Part shown: positions 10,995 through 30,322 of the stretch, piece after piece | Position numbering within the stretch: the first letter of the stretch is position 1 | How the letters are laid out: every line of letters begins with the position of its first letter | NCBI GenBank assembly: GCA_015059095.1 | Contig: SVBA01000007.1 | Span: forward strand, 1 to 64,000 | Length of the DNA stretch: 64,000 nt | Reading direction: 5' to 3' | From: Erysipelotrichaceae bacterium | Lineage (GTDB): Bacteria > Bacillota_I > Bacilli_A > RFN20 > CAG-449 | Notes under the pieces: model-generated | Database searches by the model: none | What the model was told of the DNA's origin: nothing | The model's input: only the letters and a program-made list of their open reading frames with translations | Position numbers and translations under genes: made by a program

Positions 10995-11357
10995 ATGAAA
11001 TTTAACGAAACATTAAAAGCATGTAGAGAAGAAAAAAATTTATCAATTAAATCACTAGCAGATAAAATCGGAGTTAAACCTTACACAATTTCAGATTGGG
11101 AGACAGGAAGATCCGAACCTTCAATCAATAATCTAATTAAACTTTCCAATTTTTTTAATGTTAGATTAGATTTTTTAGTTGGCAATACACTACCACAAGA
11201 TGATGAATATGATGAAATTATTAATATAATTAATAATTTTCAAACTCGTGTTTACGATGATGAAATTAATGAATTATTCAGTGGCCTTTCAAATAAGAAT
11301 CGAAAAAAATTAATCAATATATTAACAATTGTAAAACAAGAACTACTCAAAAAATAA
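10995..11357 (+). CDS. XRE-family transcriptional regulator
   Basis: A 120-residue protein with a textbook HTH_3 domain at residues 5-62 (SIKSLADKIGVKPYTISDWE then GRSEPSINNLIKLSNFF) and a short acidic C-terminal dimerisation part. Ribosome site AGAGGT. It is divergent, 68 bp from the 342-aa/phosphoesterase operon, and the palindrome between them is a likely binding site, so it is the predicted controller of that operon. A strong terminator follows. Confidence 0.85.
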   Translation: MKFNETLKACREEKNLSIKSLADKIGVKPYTISDWETGRSEPSINNLIKLSNFFNVRLDFLVGNTLPQDDEYDEIINIINNFQTRVYDDEINELFSGLSNKNRKKLINILTIVKQELLKK

Positions 11358-11368
11358 TAAAAATATTT

Positions 11369-11415
11369 AAGACTTATTCTCCTTTCATCTAAATTATACA
11401 ATAAGTCTTTTTGTT
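11369..11415 (+). terminator. Terminator after XRE gene
   Basis: Ten-bp perfect stem AAGACTTATT (11369-11378) / AATAAGTCTT (11400-11409) with a 21-nt loop, followed by TTTTG. Confidence 0.7.
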
Positions 11416-11569
11416 TGTAAATATTTTTTACTTATTATATATCTACTAGTAATTTTTACTATTTATATTATAACAAATTATTGTATTTTTTACTAACGTT
11501 TCAACTAATTAATTCTTTATAAAATAATTATTTTATATTAAAATAAAACCAAGAAAAGGAGATATTTTT

Positions 11570-14050
11570 ATGAATAAAAATTTTATTAAGTTACTTCTTG
11601 TTACTCTTCTACTAACTTCATGTCAAGTAGAACATTCATCAAGCATTAATAATTCTTCTAATGAACCATCTTCTTCTACTTCTTTTGAAGTAGAAAATAG
11701 TTCTTCTAGTGAAAATAGCTCAAGTAGTTCTTCTAGTGAATCTCATTCATCTAGTGAATCAAGCTCTGAAGCATCAAGCGATAATACTAGTTCAGAAGAA
11801 TCAATTTTTGATTCTTTACCTCCAATTAGTTATGTACAAGTATTTGCTCCTAGTAATTATACTCATGTATATGCATGGATAAATACTAACACAGGCGTCA
11901 ATGAATTATGTTCTAAATGGCCTGGAACAACTCTAAAGAATTATGATTCAGAATGGAAAACATATGACTTCCCTGGTTATACAGAATTAAATGTTATCTT
12001 CAATACTGGTAGTAATCAAGATCAAACCGCAGACTTAACAATTAGTAAAGAAGGTTATTATTGGTATTATGATGGAGGATTACATATGGTACCTCCTGGA
12101 GAAGAAGATTCTAGTGGTGGAACTGGACAAGTACCATCAATCCCATCTTATCAAGCTGACTCATGGAAAGAATTTAAATTCTGGAATGAATATGATTCTT
12201 CTTATTGGAAAACTATTAATAAATATAATGGTTCAAGAAAAGACTTTAGACAAGAATCTATCTATTTTGCAATTACTACTAGATTCTATGATGGAGACTC
12301 TTCAAATAACGTCCATTGTTGGGATGGATCAAATCCAGATTCGGATCCAGCTTGGAGAGGAGACTTCAAAGGGTTAATTGAAAAAATGGATTATATTAAA
12401 GCCTTAGGCTTTACTTCTATTTGGATTACTCCTGTAGTTGAAAACTGCTCTGGTTATGACTACCATGGTTACCACGCATTAAACTTCCAAAAAGTTGACC
12501 CTAGATATCTTTCAGAAGATGTATCTTTCCAAACAGTAATTAACGAAGCTCATAAAAGAGATATGAAAATTATTCTTGACGTAGTATTTAATCATACAGG
12601 AAACTTTGGAGAAGGAAACATCTTCCCAATGTTTGAAAAAGTAGGCGACTTAGGTTCATTTAATTGTGTCAAACTAGTAAAAGAATCACCACTTCCTTCT
12701 AACTACAATAGTTTAGATTCAGGAGAACAATATGACGCTAGAATTGCTGCTATGAAGAATACAAGAAATGATGGTTCAGATCCTAATTATATTTATCATC
12801 ATTATGGCAACTTCTCTTGGGATACATTTGGTGATCAAGTCGCTCAAATCGCTGGAGATTGTGTAGATTTAAATACTGAAAATCCAGTAGTCGCAGAATA
12901 TATTGTAAAATCTTATGGTGAATTTATTAAAATGGGTGTCGATGCATTTAGAATTGATACTATGAAACATATTTCTCGATTAACACTAAATAATTATATC
13001 TTCCCTGCTTTATATGAATTTGCTAATAAATGTGGTAACACTAACTTCTTTATGTTTGGTGAAGTATGTACTAGAGTTAGAGAAGTTTGGAATAGAAACA
13101 TTCCTGCTTTATCTGCTCCTTTCTATACTTGGAAAGAAGAAAAAGAATACCCTTGGGGTGATACTGAAACTAACTTATCAAGCATCGAAAAAGCATATAA
13201 CGACAATAACGAAGTAAATAATGAAAGGACTTCAACAAATGCAAAATTAAATGGTGTTACTTATCATGCTCCAGATTATAGTGCATCTAATGGAGTAGGT
13301 GTCATTGACTTCCCAATGCATTGGAATTTCCAATACGCTAGAGACGCATTCAATTTAGCAAAATCTACAGATCAATATTATAACGATGCTACTTACAACG
13401 TAACTTATGTAGATTCACATGACTATGGTCCAGATGGTATTTCAACAGTAAGATACAATATGGGTACTAGATCATGGGCAGAAAATATGAACTTAATGTT
13501 CACATTTAGAGGAATTCCATGTATCTACTATGGTTCTGAAATCGAATTCCAAAAAGGTAAAGTAATCGACCAAGGTCCAAACTTAAAGTTAAGTGAAACA
13601 GGTAGAGCGTATTATGGTGATCATTTAGAAGGTTCAGTAACTGCTACTGGATTTGGTGATTACTCTGCTTCAGGAACAGTTAATACCACATTAAGTTCAA
13701 CTCTTTCTCAACACTTAATTAAACTAAATAAAATTAGACAAGCAGTACCTGCTTTATCATTAGGTCAATACACTACTAATAATGTAAATGGTGAAATGGC
13801 ATTTATTAGAAGATATACAGATTCCAGTATCGATTCTCTTGCTTTAGTTTCTATATCTAATTCCGCAACATTCTCTAATATTCCAAATGGTAAATATGTC
13901 GATGTTGTTACAGGAGACATTAAAAATGTTTCAAATGGAACATTAAGTGTTAGCTCTATTGGACAAGGAAACTTAAGAGTATATGTATTACAAAATACAA
14001 CAACTGGTACATTAAGTAGAATTGGTGGATCAACTGCTTACTTAAAATAA
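11570..14050 (+). CDS. Extracellular lipoprotein alpha-amylase (GH13) with starch-binding domain
   Basis: An 826-residue cell-surface starch-degrading enzyme. Signal peptide with lipobox LTSC (Cys18); Ser-rich linker (about 22-78); CBM26-like starch-binding module (about 85-170, with VYAWINTNTG and WPGT); GH13 catalytic barrel from about 205 to 720; C-terminal beta domain. Region I is DVVFNHTG, region II GVDAFRIDTMKH (nucleophile D463), region III FMFGEV (acid/base E498), region IV YVDSHD (D618). It should cut alpha-1,4-glucans outside the cell. Single-gene unit with AAAAGGAG ribosome site and its own terminator. The CBM resembles the C-terminal domain of the starch-binding lipoprotein at 30323-32503. 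Confidence 0.92.
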   Translation: MNKNFIKLLLVTLLLTSCQVEHSSSINNSSNEPSSSTSFEVENSSSSENSSSSSSSESHSSSESSSEASSDNTSSEESIFDSLPPISYVQVFAPSNYTHVYAWINTNTGVNELCSKWPGTTLKNYDSEWKTYDFPGYTELNVIFNTGSNQDQTADLTISKEGYYWYYDGGLHMVPPGEEDSSGGTGQVPSIPSYQADSWKEFKFWNEYDSSYWKTINKYNGSRKDFRQESIYFAITTRFYDGDSSNNVHCWDGSNPDSDPAWRGDFKGLIEKMDYIKALGFTSIWITPVVENCSGYDYHGYHALNFQKVDPRYLSEDVSFQTVINEAHKRDMKIILDVVFNHTGNFGEGNIFPMFEKVGDLGSFNCVKLVKESPLPSNYNSLDSGEQYDARIAAMKNTRNDGSDPNYIYHHYGNFSWDTFGDQVAQIAGDCVDLNTENPVVAEYIVKSYGEFIKMGVDAFRIDTMKHISRLTLNNYIFPALYEFANKCGNTNFFMFGEVCTRVREVWNRNIPALSAPFYTWKEEKEYPWGDTETNLSSIEKAYNDNNEVNNERTSTNAKLNGVTYHAPDYSASNGVGVIDFPMHWNFQYARDAFNLAKSTDQYYNDATYNVTYVDSHDYGPDGISTVRYNMGTRSWAENMNLMFTFRGIPCIYYGSEIEFQKGKVIDQGPNLKLSETGRAYYGDHLEGSVTATGFGDYSASGTVNTTLSSTLSQHLIKLNKIRQAVPALSLGQYTTNNVNGEMAFIRRYTDSSIDSLALVSISNSATFSNIPNGKYVDVVTGDIKNVSNGTLSVSSIGQGNLRVYVLQNTTTGTLSRIGGSTAYLK

Positions 14051-26768: not shown

Positions 26769-26774
26769 AAAAGA

Positions 26775-26814
26775 AAGTGAACCTCTTGGTTTATGCCAAA
26801 AAGTTCACTTTTTT
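26775..26814. terminator. Bidirectional terminator
   Basis: AAGTGAAC (26775-26782) pairs with GTTCACTT (26803-26810), with an inner TTGG/CCAA, T run to the right and A run to the left; it serves the SDR operon and the convergent RyR gene. Confidence 0.8.
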
Positions 26815-26815
26815 C

Positions 26816-28933
26816 TTATCTTTTAACAATTCTGTAATTGCTATTTTCAAACATTGGTTTAAAACTTTCAACAATCATATGATCATATTTATATGTTTCA
26901 ACTGTATTTAAATTTTCCTCTAAAGTTTTATTGTTTTCTTTAGTTAATAATTCTGCTAATAAACGATGATAATCATCTAAACCTTCATAAGTAGTTAAAC
27001 ATGCATGTAAATTTAATACGCCATCATCTTTATAGAAGGATGGACCATATTCACCATTAGGATCTAAACATTTAATCTTATCTTTTTCAAGTGGTACATA
27101 TCCATTAGCAATATAGAAAGCATTCCATCTTAAATGTTCTTGGTATGCTAAAGAATGTACTGGTTTAAAATTGTTAGTCTTATAGAACAAATAATCTTCA
27201 TAACTCTTCTTAGTAAATTCAACTTTACTTTCTATTTCTTTTAACATTATAGAATTATCTACTACTTTATCTTCTCTAATATAATCATAGCCAAGAAGAT
27301 TTAGTTTTAAACGAATATTCAAACTAGAATATACATTTGAAGCTTGTTTAATAGTTGATAAAGTATACCAAGGAGAATCTTTTAAGCGTTTAGAATGATA
27401 TTTCTTATTAACTAATTTTGCAAGTTCATATAATCTTTCATTAACAATAACATCATGGTTGAAGATTGAATCTATATCACCAATAACATTAACTCTCTTA
27501 TCTTCTAATAATTTAATTGCAGATGGGAATTTTCCTTTTACTTTAACGTAAAGTTCATAGTTCTCATAACCTTGTTCTTTTAATAATGCAGATACCTTAA
27601 TTGCCATATCAATATTATCGATATCTTCCCCATAAGAAATAATAAATCTGTTATATGATTTTTCATTTTTATTCTTTTTAATAATATTTAATATTTCACT
27701 AATAATTGTATACGACTCAATATTTACCACTTGGAAATCTACATTATCAAGTTTATCAATTGATGGGAGATATTTTTTTGTTGAATATTTTTTAGTATTT
27801 TCATCGTAACGTTTAAAGAAGAAAGACATAGTTTTATCTTCATTAGCCTTTTCATCTTTATCAAAAGCATAATAAGAGATATTATATTTTTTCATTACAT
27901 TATCTTCAATAGTAGGAAGATTATCATTCATTAATTGAACTCTATGTAATGTTTTAGCTAGCTTACCAAACCCTAAATAAATTACATTAATTGACATATC
28001 ATGTTCCACAATTCCTAAGTTCTCATTAATAAAACTTGAAGGTAAATGTTCAGTAATAGGATTTCTTTCAATATAATTTAGCGCGAATAATTCATATCTA
28101 GTAAAACAGTCAATAAATGCTGCAATACTTCTATTTTCTAAAATCTTATTTTTAATAGATAATTGATTATTAAAATCAATTTCTACCTTTAAATAACAAT
28201 TTTTATAATCTAATACTTTATCTTTTTTAGTAATATTGCAATTTAAGAAATCTTCAAATTCCTTTATATATCCTAATGAAATTGAACTATTTTGGAAGGA
28301 AATAAAATTTAATTCAATTCCTCTTTTAATATGCCATTTAAAGTTTTTCAATAAAATATTTTTTAAAAATTTTGCTTGAATAACTGGAATCTTTTTAGAA
28401 TAGTATTCATTCATTTTATCTGATTTAAAAGTATCAGTAATAATAATTACGTTTTCACTTCTTTCATAGTAAGTGAAATTATAATCATTTTCCCCAATTA
28501 AAACATCACAATTTTTTCTTAAAGCATATTGAACTCTAACCATATTAGTAATTGTATTAATCGCTAAACTGATTAAAGAAGTATAAACACATGCTACTGA
28601 TAAACCAACTGCAATTCCATAAGCAATTTTAAATATCACATTAACATCCATTAATGCAGAAACATAATCAATCTTTAATTCAAATACTGTCGCAGAAATA
28701 ACACTCTTACAAATTCCCATGTAATCAACAATACCTAAAGTCGTATTATTAATTGAGGCTGCATAATTTGCACCTAAAGTATATAACGCAAATAAAATCA
28801 CGCTTGTTGGAACAAAATAAATAATTGTACCTTTAGAAATAAATTTTTGAGTTTTAATCGCATAAAAAACATAAAATCCTATTAGTAAGATTTCAACGAC
28901 TAAAATGATTATTGGTAATACTGTATAAATCAT
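26816..28933 (-). CDS. Membrane protein with TrkA-N-like Rossmann and RyR domains
   Basis: A 705-residue protein. The N-terminal ~150 residues hold three or four membrane segments (residues 3-26, 35-60, 88-118). A Rossmann-type region follows with INVIYLGFGKLAKTL near 310, typical of TrkA-N NAD-binding domains of potassium channels, and a second alpha/beta part. Near 585-670 is a RyR domain (EHLRWNAFYIANGYVP). RyR domains are found in eukaryotic ryanodine receptors and in bacterial proteins predicted to belong to nucleotide-sensing conflict or signalling systems. It is most likely a ligand-gated channel or signalling receptor. Single gene between terminators, with a good ribosome site. Confidence 0.68.
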   Translation of the reverse strand: MIYTVLPIIILVVEILLIGFYVFYAIKTQKFISKGTIIYFVPTSVILFALYTLGANYAASINNTTLGIVDYMGICKSVISATVFELKIDYVSALMDVNVIFKIAYGIAVGLSVACVYTSLISLAINTITNMVRVQYALRKNCDVLIGENDYNFTYYERSENVIIITDTFKSDKMNEYYSKKIPVIQAKFLKNILLKNFKWHIKRGIELNFISFQNSSISLGYIKEFEDFLNCNITKKDKVLDYKNCYLKVEIDFNNQLSIKNKILENRSIAAFIDCFTRYELFALNYIERNPITEHLPSSFINENLGIVEHDMSINVIYLGFGKLAKTLHRVQLMNDNLPTIEDNVMKKYNISYYAFDKDEKANEDKTMSFFFKRYDENTKKYSTKKYLPSIDKLDNVDFQVVNIESYTIISEILNIIKKNKNEKSYNRFIISYGEDIDNIDMAIKVSALLKEQGYENYELYVKVKGKFPSAIKLLEDKRVNVIGDIDSIFNHDVIVNERLYELAKLVNKKYHSKRLKDSPWYTLSTIKQASNVYSSLNIRLKLNLLGYDYIREDKVVDNSIMLKEIESKVEFTKKSYEDYLFYKTNNFKPVHSLAYQEHLRWNAFYIANGYVPLEKDKIKCLDPNGEYGPSFYKDDGVLNLHACLTTYEGLDDYHRLLAELLTKENNKTLEENLNTVETYKYDHMIVESFKPMFENSNYRIVKR

Positions 28934-29010: not shown

Positions 29011-29034
29011 AAGGTGTCTTGTTTTAGACACCTT
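29011..29034 (-). terminator. Terminator of the phosphatase operon
   Basis: AAGGTGTCT/AGACACCTT stem, followed by TTTT on the minus strand. Confidence 0.8.
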
Positions 29035-29038
29035 AATT

Positions 29039-30310
29039 TTAATCATTTAAATAAGTTGAACAAAGTTTAAATACATCAGTATTATCCCAATATGGAATTC
29101 CTTCTAAAGTAGAAAAATGTTCTCCATACTTACTTACATATTCACTAATATCACCATATACTGCAATATCAACTCTTGTTCTAGAATGATTCATCGATAA
29201 CCATTTAATATCATCAATGATAGTTTCTTGAGTTGCTTTATCTCTATCATAATACAGTCCACCTGTTTCATGATCTGCAGTAACGACGATTAATGTATCG
29301 TCTCTACTATCTGCCCATTCAGTTGCAGCCTCAACAGCATTATTAAAGCCAATCAATTCATTCATCATTAATTTAGTTTCATTAGAATGAGATTTCTTAT
29401 CAATATTAGAACCTTCAACCATTAGGAAGAAACCTTCTTCATTATCTAAATAATCTAAAGCATATATCGTTAATTCTTCTAAAGTTGGAACTCTTGGATC
29501 TTCTTTAGATGCTACTAAATCAAATAAGCCTAATTGGCGAGAAGCTTCTTTATTTAAAGCTTCTTTATTATATGCTATATCAAATCCTTTGGATTTAAAT
29601 AAAGATTCATAACTAGCTTTATTATCTTTAAAATCGCTGACATTTTGCGTTAAAACTAAATCTACTGGAGAATTTGCAACACCTTTAATTATTTCATCTG
29701 CTAAATGCCTTTCACCAACATGAACTAGGAAATCAGAAGGAGTTGCCCCTACTATATTATCTGAAGTAACTACCCCAGTTTTCTTTCCTAAACCTGAAGC
29801 AATCTCAACTAGATTTTCTATTGGATCACCATTAATATCCATACCAATTCTAGAATTAGTCACTTTTACTCCACAAGCTAATGCTGTTCCTCCAGCCGCA
29901 CTATCAGTATAAGTAGTAATATTACCACCCGTTCCTAAAGTTCCTCCATAAGGAGAAGGAGTTCCATCATATAATGAAGGATTTAATTCTGGTCTTAATA
30001 AGGATTTAGTTGTATCTAAAGTAAATCCTTCAGAAGTCAATGAATCAGTATTTGAATAAGCGTGATATGTCCATTTATCATTAGTTACATCAAAACATAA
30101 AGGTTCACCTAAATAAATACCACCCGCATCAACATGATTTGGTCCCATACCATCACCAATAAACATAATGATATTTTTGTATTTTTTATTTAAAGAAGGG
30201 GCAATAGTTTGTGAAGAAACATTATTTGATTCTACTTTCTTAATCGAAATAGAAGCATTTGAACAGCCCACTAGAAATACAACACCTAAAATTACTAATA
30301 ACTTTTTCAT
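29039..30310 (-). CDS. Alkaline phosphatase (PhoA family) lipoprotein
   Basis: A 423-residue surface enzyme. Lipobox LVGC (Cys16). MFIGDGMGPNHV carries metal Asp53, TDSAAGG the nucleophile Ser137, and VTADHETGG the second metal site; the SHSNET-type segment (KKSHSNE) supplies further ligands. It removes phosphate from extracellular phosphomonoesters. The ATG is preferred over the GTG three codons upstream; AGGAGG lies 8 nt away. It starts a few bases after the stop of the starch-binding lipoprotein, so both are in one operon. Confidence 0.9.
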   Translation of the reverse strand: MKKLLVILGVVFLVGCSNASISIKKVESNNVSSQTIAPSLNKKYKNIIMFIGDGMGPNHVDAGGIYLGEPLCFDVTNDKWTYHAYSNTDSLTSEGFTLDTTKSLLRPELNPSLYDGTPSPYGGTLGTGGNITTYTDSAAGGTALACGVKVTNSRIGMDINGDPIENLVEIASGLGKKTGVVTSDNIVGATPSDFLVHVGERHLADEIIKGVANSPVDLVLTQNVSDFKDNKASYESLFKSKGFDIAYNKEALNKEASRQLGLFDLVASKEDPRVPTLEELTIYALDYLDNEEGFFLMVEGSNIDKKSHSNETKLMMNELIGFNNAVEAATEWADSRDDTLIVVTADHETGGLYYDRDKATQETIIDDIKWLSMNHSRTRVDIAVYGDISEYVSKYGEHFSTLEGIPYWDNTDVFKLCSTYLND

Positions 30311-30322
30311 ATCCTTCACCTC

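Follow-up and report, generated by a model that had tools for sequence, protein, structure and literature searches.

What does a channel-like bacterial membrane protein sense through a C-terminal RyR domain, and to what end? The question is raised by one gene of the window, that is, the whole stretch of 64,000 nucleotides analyzed here, known as contig C32 in a draft genome of 1.76 Mb. A first-pass annotation, made from the sequence alone, had proposed that this gene encodes a nucleotide- or NAD-gated channel.

Gene and domain architecture

The open reading frame lies where the first-pass annotation had put it, at 26816-28933 on the minus strand; it is intact in one frame, opens with ATG, and encodes 705 amino acids, the stop codon being counted in the coordinates. 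Single-sequence scans of the protein returned no significant Pfam, NCBIfam, or PADLOC match, and its matches to Radical_SAM (E 0.04) and DUF3801 (E 0.2) were dismissed as chance. Searches of PDB sequences with phmmer and with profiles of two family alignments (A1, 18 rows; A2, 22 family C-termini) gave chance-level rows only, among them RyR3 at E 0.6. The gene and its parts are as follows, with the evidence for each in parentheses.

26816..28933, minus strand, whole gene, membrane / tandem-RCK / RyR protein (ORF, family searches, AlphaFold model)
28850..28930, minus strand, membrane helix 1, residues 2-28 (AlphaFold helix and hydropathy up to 2.6)
28751..28834, minus strand, membrane helix 2, residues 34-61, in outer-helix position (AlphaFold model and hydropathy)
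28661..28723, minus strand, pore-helix-like segment and the loop after it, residues 71-91, without a K+ filter motif (AlphaFold, hydropathy)
28523..28639, minus strand, membrane helix 3, an inner helix continuing into the cytosolic part, residues 99-137 (AlphaFold, hydropathy)
28064..28513, minus strand, RCK-like Rossmann domain 1, about residues 141-290 (fold matches to GsuK, Z 14.3, and TrkA, Z 13.7)
27434..27994, minus strand, RCK/TrkA-N-like Rossmann domain 2, about residues 314-500, with GxG (G321) and D437..N440 (alignment A1 and fold matches)
26819..27394, minus strand, C-terminal domain with divergent RyR domain, residues 514-705, pocket H600, W603, H643, D684 (hhalign, AlphaFold, Foldseek, VIA-align)

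The full-length protein was modeled as a monomer by templateless AlphaFold from alignment A1, with a mean pLDDT of 83.6 and a pTM of 0.78. Helices at residues 2-28, 34-61, 71-82 (short), and 99-137 precede the Rossmann part in this model, and those at 2-28, 34-61, and 99-137 are wholly or partly hydrophobic by hydropathy; the three to four N-terminal membrane helices claimed earlier are accordingly three, plus a short pore-helix-like one. The model matches the folds of GsuK (Z 14.3, 346 residues, rmsd 9.2, model residues 28-503), MtDMI1 (Z 14.1, 329 residues, rmsd 5.3), TrkA (Z 13.7, 262 residues, rmsd 4.6, model residues 144-504), CASTOR (Z 13.0, 323 residues, rmsd 4.7), and Slo1 (Z about 10), at sequence identities of just 7-11%, and TrkA, CASTOR, and GsuK also ranked first when the full model was searched with Foldseek (E 1e-4 to 3e-4). 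By these matches, the window protein carries tandem RCK Rossmann domains. The TrkA-N-like region announced by the first-pass annotation is therefore present, but as two RCK/TrkA-N-like domains instead of one, and the motif that it quoted belongs to the second, where G321, D437, and N440 are invariant in 18/18 rows of A1. A K+ selectivity filter of the form T[VIMLT]G[YFL]G was found in none of 33 family rows. In the predicted structure, the two RCK domains follow the N-terminal membrane part, and their arrangement agrees with that of GsuK, TrkA, CASTOR, and Slo1.

The C-terminal domain is a divergent RyR domain

Neither hmmscan with PF02026 nor a search of the window's own genome with this family reported the window protein, and we thus speak of a divergent RyR-like domain and not of a Pfam member. 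Profile-profile comparison was performed between A2 and A3, an alignment of eight bacterial RyR domains found by Pfam, one of which comes from a distant relative in genome G334; the A3 profile itself matches animal ryanodine receptors with E values down to 1e-61. Aligned with hhalign, A2 and A3 gave a probability of 92.8 and a score of 45.0, compared with a best score of 20.8 among 200 column-shuffled controls. The C-terminal 192 residues, modeled separately by AlphaFold (pLDDT 90.2), retrieved RyR repeats at all of ranks 1-21 in a Foldseek search of the PDB, if at modest E values (best E 0.075, prob 0.97), and in rows 1-27 with VIA-align (Z 6.3 to 2.8; best row Z 6.3 over 123 residues, rmsd 5.0), the first unrelated row having a Z of 2.3. 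Some homologues bridge the gap to canonical domains: Pfam itself sees RyR in the second copy of G094 (E 4e-6) and in G581 (E 4e-4), and in the G334 relative a single chain combines TrkA_N (E 2e-15) with a pair of RyR domains (E 1e-38), an architecture of which only the RyR part was found elsewhere in a search of 382 genomes of the phylum.

Profile-profile alignment, fold, and bridging proteins are three independent lines that show the homology of the C-terminal domain to RyR domains. The domain named by the first-pass annotation is real, too divergent as it is for PF02026; RyR and Rossmann matches appear at the profile-profile level, where single-sequence Pfam scans are empty. The architecture proposed earlier, in which a channel-like membrane protein combines Rossmann domains of NAD/nucleotide type with a RyR domain, is likewise supported.

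Conservation of a candidate ligand pocket

Residues H75, W78, H100, and D117 of the phage protein RyDEP bind the cADPR product, according to a 2026 preprint (PMC13232231). The counterparts in the window protein are H600, W603, H643, and D684, the RyDEP numbering having been transferred through a shared EH..W / His / Y-D motif; hhalign, unprompted, paired the family's EH..W, second His, and Y-D with those of canonical RyR domains. Throughout the 22 rows of A2, the Trp, the second His, and the YD are invariant, while the first His is His in 18 rows and Lys in 4. RyDEP uses a His and an Asp as catalytic pair, and since both are present in 18/22 A2 members, hydrolysis by the family is possible. 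RyR3 repeat structures with AMP-PCP or ADP stand among the PDB fold matches, as judged from entry titles; RyR domains bind adenine nucleotides too, which makes ATP or ADP a possible ligand.

The wider pocket comparison covered 33 members, including one cut by a contig end (G060) and one misaligned second copy (G094), and here exceptions occur. The YD is missing from second copies in G042, G357, and G482 and from a relative in G003, Asn-Asp takes its place in G581, and G243 has Asn at the position of the second His. In three genomes of one genus (G264, G265, and G268), an Asp replaces the second His and the YD is absent. These belong to a one-genus subfamily at loci L026, L027, L028, and L029 (G268, G264, G265, and G267), whose four genomes lack any TIR_2 domain; the three full copies compared have lost both the YD and the second His of the pocket, and at the three loci with a visible upstream side the gene is paired with one for a 434-437-aa protein with a hydrophobic C-terminus. 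TIR and pocket seem to have been lost together here, though in no more than a single lineage.

Relatives are sparse

All genomes searched were draft assemblies. Relatives were found in 2/18 genomes of the family, the window's own included, with none in the 7 other genomes of the genus; in 16/279 genomes of the order by single-sequence search; in 26/395 sampled genomes of the class with profile A1, weak partial matches counted; and in 14/392 sampled genomes of the phylum. An Erysipelotrichaceae MAG holds a relative of 38% identity. No relative of the window protein was found in the phage and plasmid collections or in scans of viral_contigs. In a tree of 33 members, the window copy and that of G546 are sisters (45% identity, support 100/99), with G357 as the next branch (100/99). 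Defective copies also occur, namely an N-terminally truncated one of 408 aa in G217 (L024:769-1995), a fragment of 212 aa in G570 (L076:8362-9000), and one interrupted by a stop in G180 (L030:8676-10777), which indicates that the gene decays in some genomes.

Relatives are coupled to TIR genes

We searched 34 genomes for TIR_2 domains and set the matches against the positions of family members; 29 of these genomes hold a strong member. A TIR_2 domain lies within 2 kb of a strong member in 9/29 genomes (0.22 expected), within 3.5 kb in 10/29, and within 10 kb in 11/29 (0.65 expected), the latter giving a P of about 4e-12 under a coverage model that is an upper bound and takes no account of relatedness. 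As the control we used the ordinary TrkA_N genes in these genomes, and a TIR domain was found within 2 kb of 0/46 and within 10 kb of 1/46 of them (Fisher P 8e-5 at 2 kb and 6e-5 at 10 kb against the relatives). In 18/29 genomes with a strong relative there is no TIR_2 within 10 kb, some contigs being short, and in 7/29 there is none anywhere. Both nearest branches to the window copy, G546 and G357, are TIR-linked.

The 11 listed pairs (8 from strong members, 3 from weaker relatives) are all codirectional, with gaps of -32 to +12 bp in 10 and of 383 bp in one. The start codon of the TIR gene in G546 falls within the last bases of the channel gene (overlap of 8 bp), and in G488 the channel gene and a TIR+methyltransferase gene abut with zero bases between them. 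In the pair proteins that were scanned, the TIR assignment is borne out by Pfam, and one shared column holds Glu in 15/15 aligned TIR domains (13 neighbors and 2 from the window's genome), which we take to be the catalytic Glu. Two further members (G123 and G581) adjoin DUF4062, described in part of a published text (PMC13174449) as a TIR-like NADase family. The link to nucleotide-centered conflict systems drawn by the first-pass annotation consequently stands by way of NAD-consuming TIR genes; for the nucleotide cyclases it suggested looking for, no cyclase or CD-NTase was recognized by eye among the neighboring ORFs of the relatives examined.

These neighborhoods hold other recurrent genes. 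Many of the TIR partners also carry a SAM-methyltransferase domain (L020, L021, L070, L073, and L077/L078), with five such fusions counted (G060, of weak methyltransferase score, G125, G575, G488, and G003). A protein of roughly 720-790 aa with a canonical RyR domain and, by eye, a SLOG-like C-terminal stretch recurs near members in G004 (L018:4394-6655), G580 (L072:3441-5594), and G488 (L073 near 11294-11998). A P-loop protein that is kinase-like and ends in a deoxyribosyltransferase/TIR-like C-terminus, reported by PADLOC as 'Effector TIR' (E about 1e-13), is encoded in three genomes either just upstream of a member or flanked by two cluster genes (L001:5009-6106, L072:2225-3346, and L074:6709-7806). 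G546 (L067:7704-14610) and G488 (L073:4804-11294) share a four-gene module of a TIR protein, a protein of about 690 aa, a ParA-like ATPase, and a large protein, and in G546 the RyR channel gene is immediately upstream of it. Finally, G357 encodes a free-standing, canonical RyR protein of 99 aa (E 6e-34), its gene (L001:11731-12030) being placed between the two channel genes and a TIR gene; a role as signal sponge or as immunity-type regulator is conceivable.

The window copy has no TIR neighbor

Contig C32 has no TIR_2 match. Terminator-like sites number 3 against 0.3 expected, and two of them frame the gene.

29011..29034, both strands, terminator-like hairpin between the upstream gene 29039-30319 and the channel gene
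26774..26811, minus strand, terminator-like hairpin right after the stop codon

The window copy is a solo transcription unit with hairpins on both sides, and 'stand-alone', as it was called at first, holds for this copy but not for the family, whose relatives are TIR-coupled. The alkaline-phosphatase-like lipoprotein gene upstream (29039-30319) was considered as an operon partner and dropped because of the hairpin in between and because no such gene was seen beside the relatives whose neighbors were examined. In two other species of the genus (G012 and G016), the same neighboring short-chain dehydrogenase gene is followed by ABC-transporter genes instead, and the channel gene is therefore dispensable.

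As a solo unit, the gene would require a TIR in trans or a nucleotide of phage or host origin. Other contigs of the window's genome carry two TIR genes, encoding 1201 and 692 aa; a TIR domain on contig C27 (L110:686-2764) is joined to an SspH-like C-terminus (PADLOC SspH, E 2e-44). The TIR protein of the sister G546 gave no match in the whole window genome, in a search run without a positive control, and a homologue of that protein acting in trans is unsupported.

A probable effector of TIR signaling, and its alternatives

Known TIR enzymes make ADP-ribose signals. The channel-like build, the RyR domain, and the position of relatives beside TIR genes together suggest that the protein forms a pore opened by a signal in a bacterial immune pathway, and we consider it probable that it acts as a membrane effector of TIR-type ADP-ribose immune signaling. 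From the fold, the conserved pocket, and the TIR coupling observed in relatives, we infer the ligand, the gating, the ion flux, and the role in defense. By analogy, a TIR enzyme activated by infection would turn NAD+ into an ADP-ribose-type signal, for example a cADPR isomer, which the C-terminal RyR domain would bind in the pocket H600/W603/H643/D684, a site identified by homology and conservation. Binding may then shift the gating ring predicted from the tandem RCK domains, presumably in an oligomer, so that the N-terminal pore would open, the membrane become depolarized or leaky, and the growth of the infected cell stop. A pairing of cADPR with animal ryanodine receptors has long been suspected. 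Somewhat more tentatively, at a little under an even chance, we propose that cyclic ADP-ribose made by a TIR enzyme binds the RyR domain and thereby directly opens an immune channel of bacteria, here on an RCK-gated pore unrelated to that of the animal receptors; RyR would then be a general ADP-ribose-sensing channel module, shared by the bacterial RCK type, oomycete PKDRR, and animal RyR.

The same architecture might instead belong to a housekeeping channel, which would respond to ATP/ADP or NAD(H) through its RCK ring and its RyR domain and tune ion flux to the energy state with no part in immunity. RCK channels and TrkA are nucleotide-regulated, the fold matches include, by their titles, GsuK with ADP or NAD and TrkA with ATPgammaS beside the RyR3 repeats with AMP-PCP or ADP, and no TIR gene adjoins the window copy. 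We nevertheless find this unlikely, given a distribution as patchy as 16/279 genomes of the order and none of the 7 others of the genus, a variable genomic site, and a TIR coupling far over chance that is not seen for TrkA_N genes. Another alternative keeps the TIR signal but reverses the role of the protein, which would be a membrane-tethered sink that hydrolyzes or sequesters the signal like RyDEP, anchored by its RCK and membrane part, dampening the response instead of executing it. A solo gene without a TIR would suit a guard against the signal of another system, and the catalytic His and Asp are both kept in 18/22 members; however, a pore-like N-terminus and two RCK domains are superfluous for a sink, the gene order and overlap in the TIR pairs resemble those of a signal maker and its effector, and the catalytic His is Lys in 4/22 members, two of which (L021 and L070) are still TIR-linked. 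A sink of this kind is, in our judgment, distinctly unlikely.

Two readings would deprive the window protein of a function or of a pore. It is improbable that the gene is the orphan remnant of a former two-gene TIR system, now solo and decaying or functionless in this genome: its sister copies are indeed TIR-linked, the window has no TIR, and truncated or split copies exist elsewhere (G217, G570, and G180), but the window copy is full length, keeps its pocket, RCK, and membrane elements intact, and has its own hairpins. The absence of a K+ filter motif from all 33 rows, a monomeric model, and fold matches mostly from the soluble RCK ring would fit a membrane-bound scaffold that passes the signal by oligomerization without a pore. 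Against such a scaffold, which seems very improbable, the outer helix, short helix, inner helix, and RCK-RCK follow one another in the order of RCK channels, and the GsuK alignment begins as early as model residue 28.

Comparison with known systems and implications

Searches of open-licence PMC papers brought up no fusion of RCK/TrkA-N and RyR in bacteria and no RCK-RyR effector of TIR systems. If the reading as an immune effector is true, TIR immunity gains an ion-channel effector, and a small, tractable bacterial protein becomes available for testing whether RyR domains sense ADP-ribose cyclics and gate pores; the presence of RyR-domain sponges and hydrolases in phages would also be explained, as the receptors of their hosts may be built on this fold. 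Yirmiya et al. reportedly catalogued TIR systems in 2025.

The closest comparisons concern parts of the protein. RyDEP and other PF02026 proteins have in common with it the RyR repeat fold and, as aligned by profile, the four pocket residues. However, RyDEP, a phage protein, is small and soluble and either destroys the signal or acts as a sponge for it (PMC13232231), whereas the window's RyR domain forms part of an RCK membrane protein and its family is bacterial, with TIR genes next to relatives. In the main text of the preprint (PMC13232231), the words membrane, transmembrane, and TrkA are absent, and the preprint calls for studies on ADP-ribose sensing and gating by RyR domains, a question still open for animal ryanodine receptors. 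The likeness to Thoeris, judged from sequence, is a TIR gene coupled, here in relatives, to an effector that may read an ADP-ribose signal. In contrast to ThsA effectors, which are of SIR2-SLOG or macro type according to part of a published text (PMC11204291), the effector of the window family is an RCK-RyR-membrane protein. Pfam and PADLOC found no SIR2-SLOG or macro-domain ThsA match in the window protein, and for want of both a TIR neighbor and a ThsA-type domain we have not filed the window copy under Thoeris.

Tandem RCK domains are common to the window protein and to GsuK, CASTOR/DMI1, Slo1, and TrkH-TrkA, and GsuK also shares with it the order of membrane helices followed by RCK-RCK within one chain, while the window protein differs from RCK-gated channels by an extra C-terminal RyR domain, an extra N-terminal helix, and the lack of a TVGYG filter. 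Animal ryanodine receptors and oomycete PKDRR carry a RyR domain on a channel, as here, on pore types unrelated to the RCK type, PKDRR being described in part of a published text (PMC4820453) as a channel-RyR fusion on another pore type. With such oomycete fusions known, the RyR domain looks like a reusable ligand sensor for channels.
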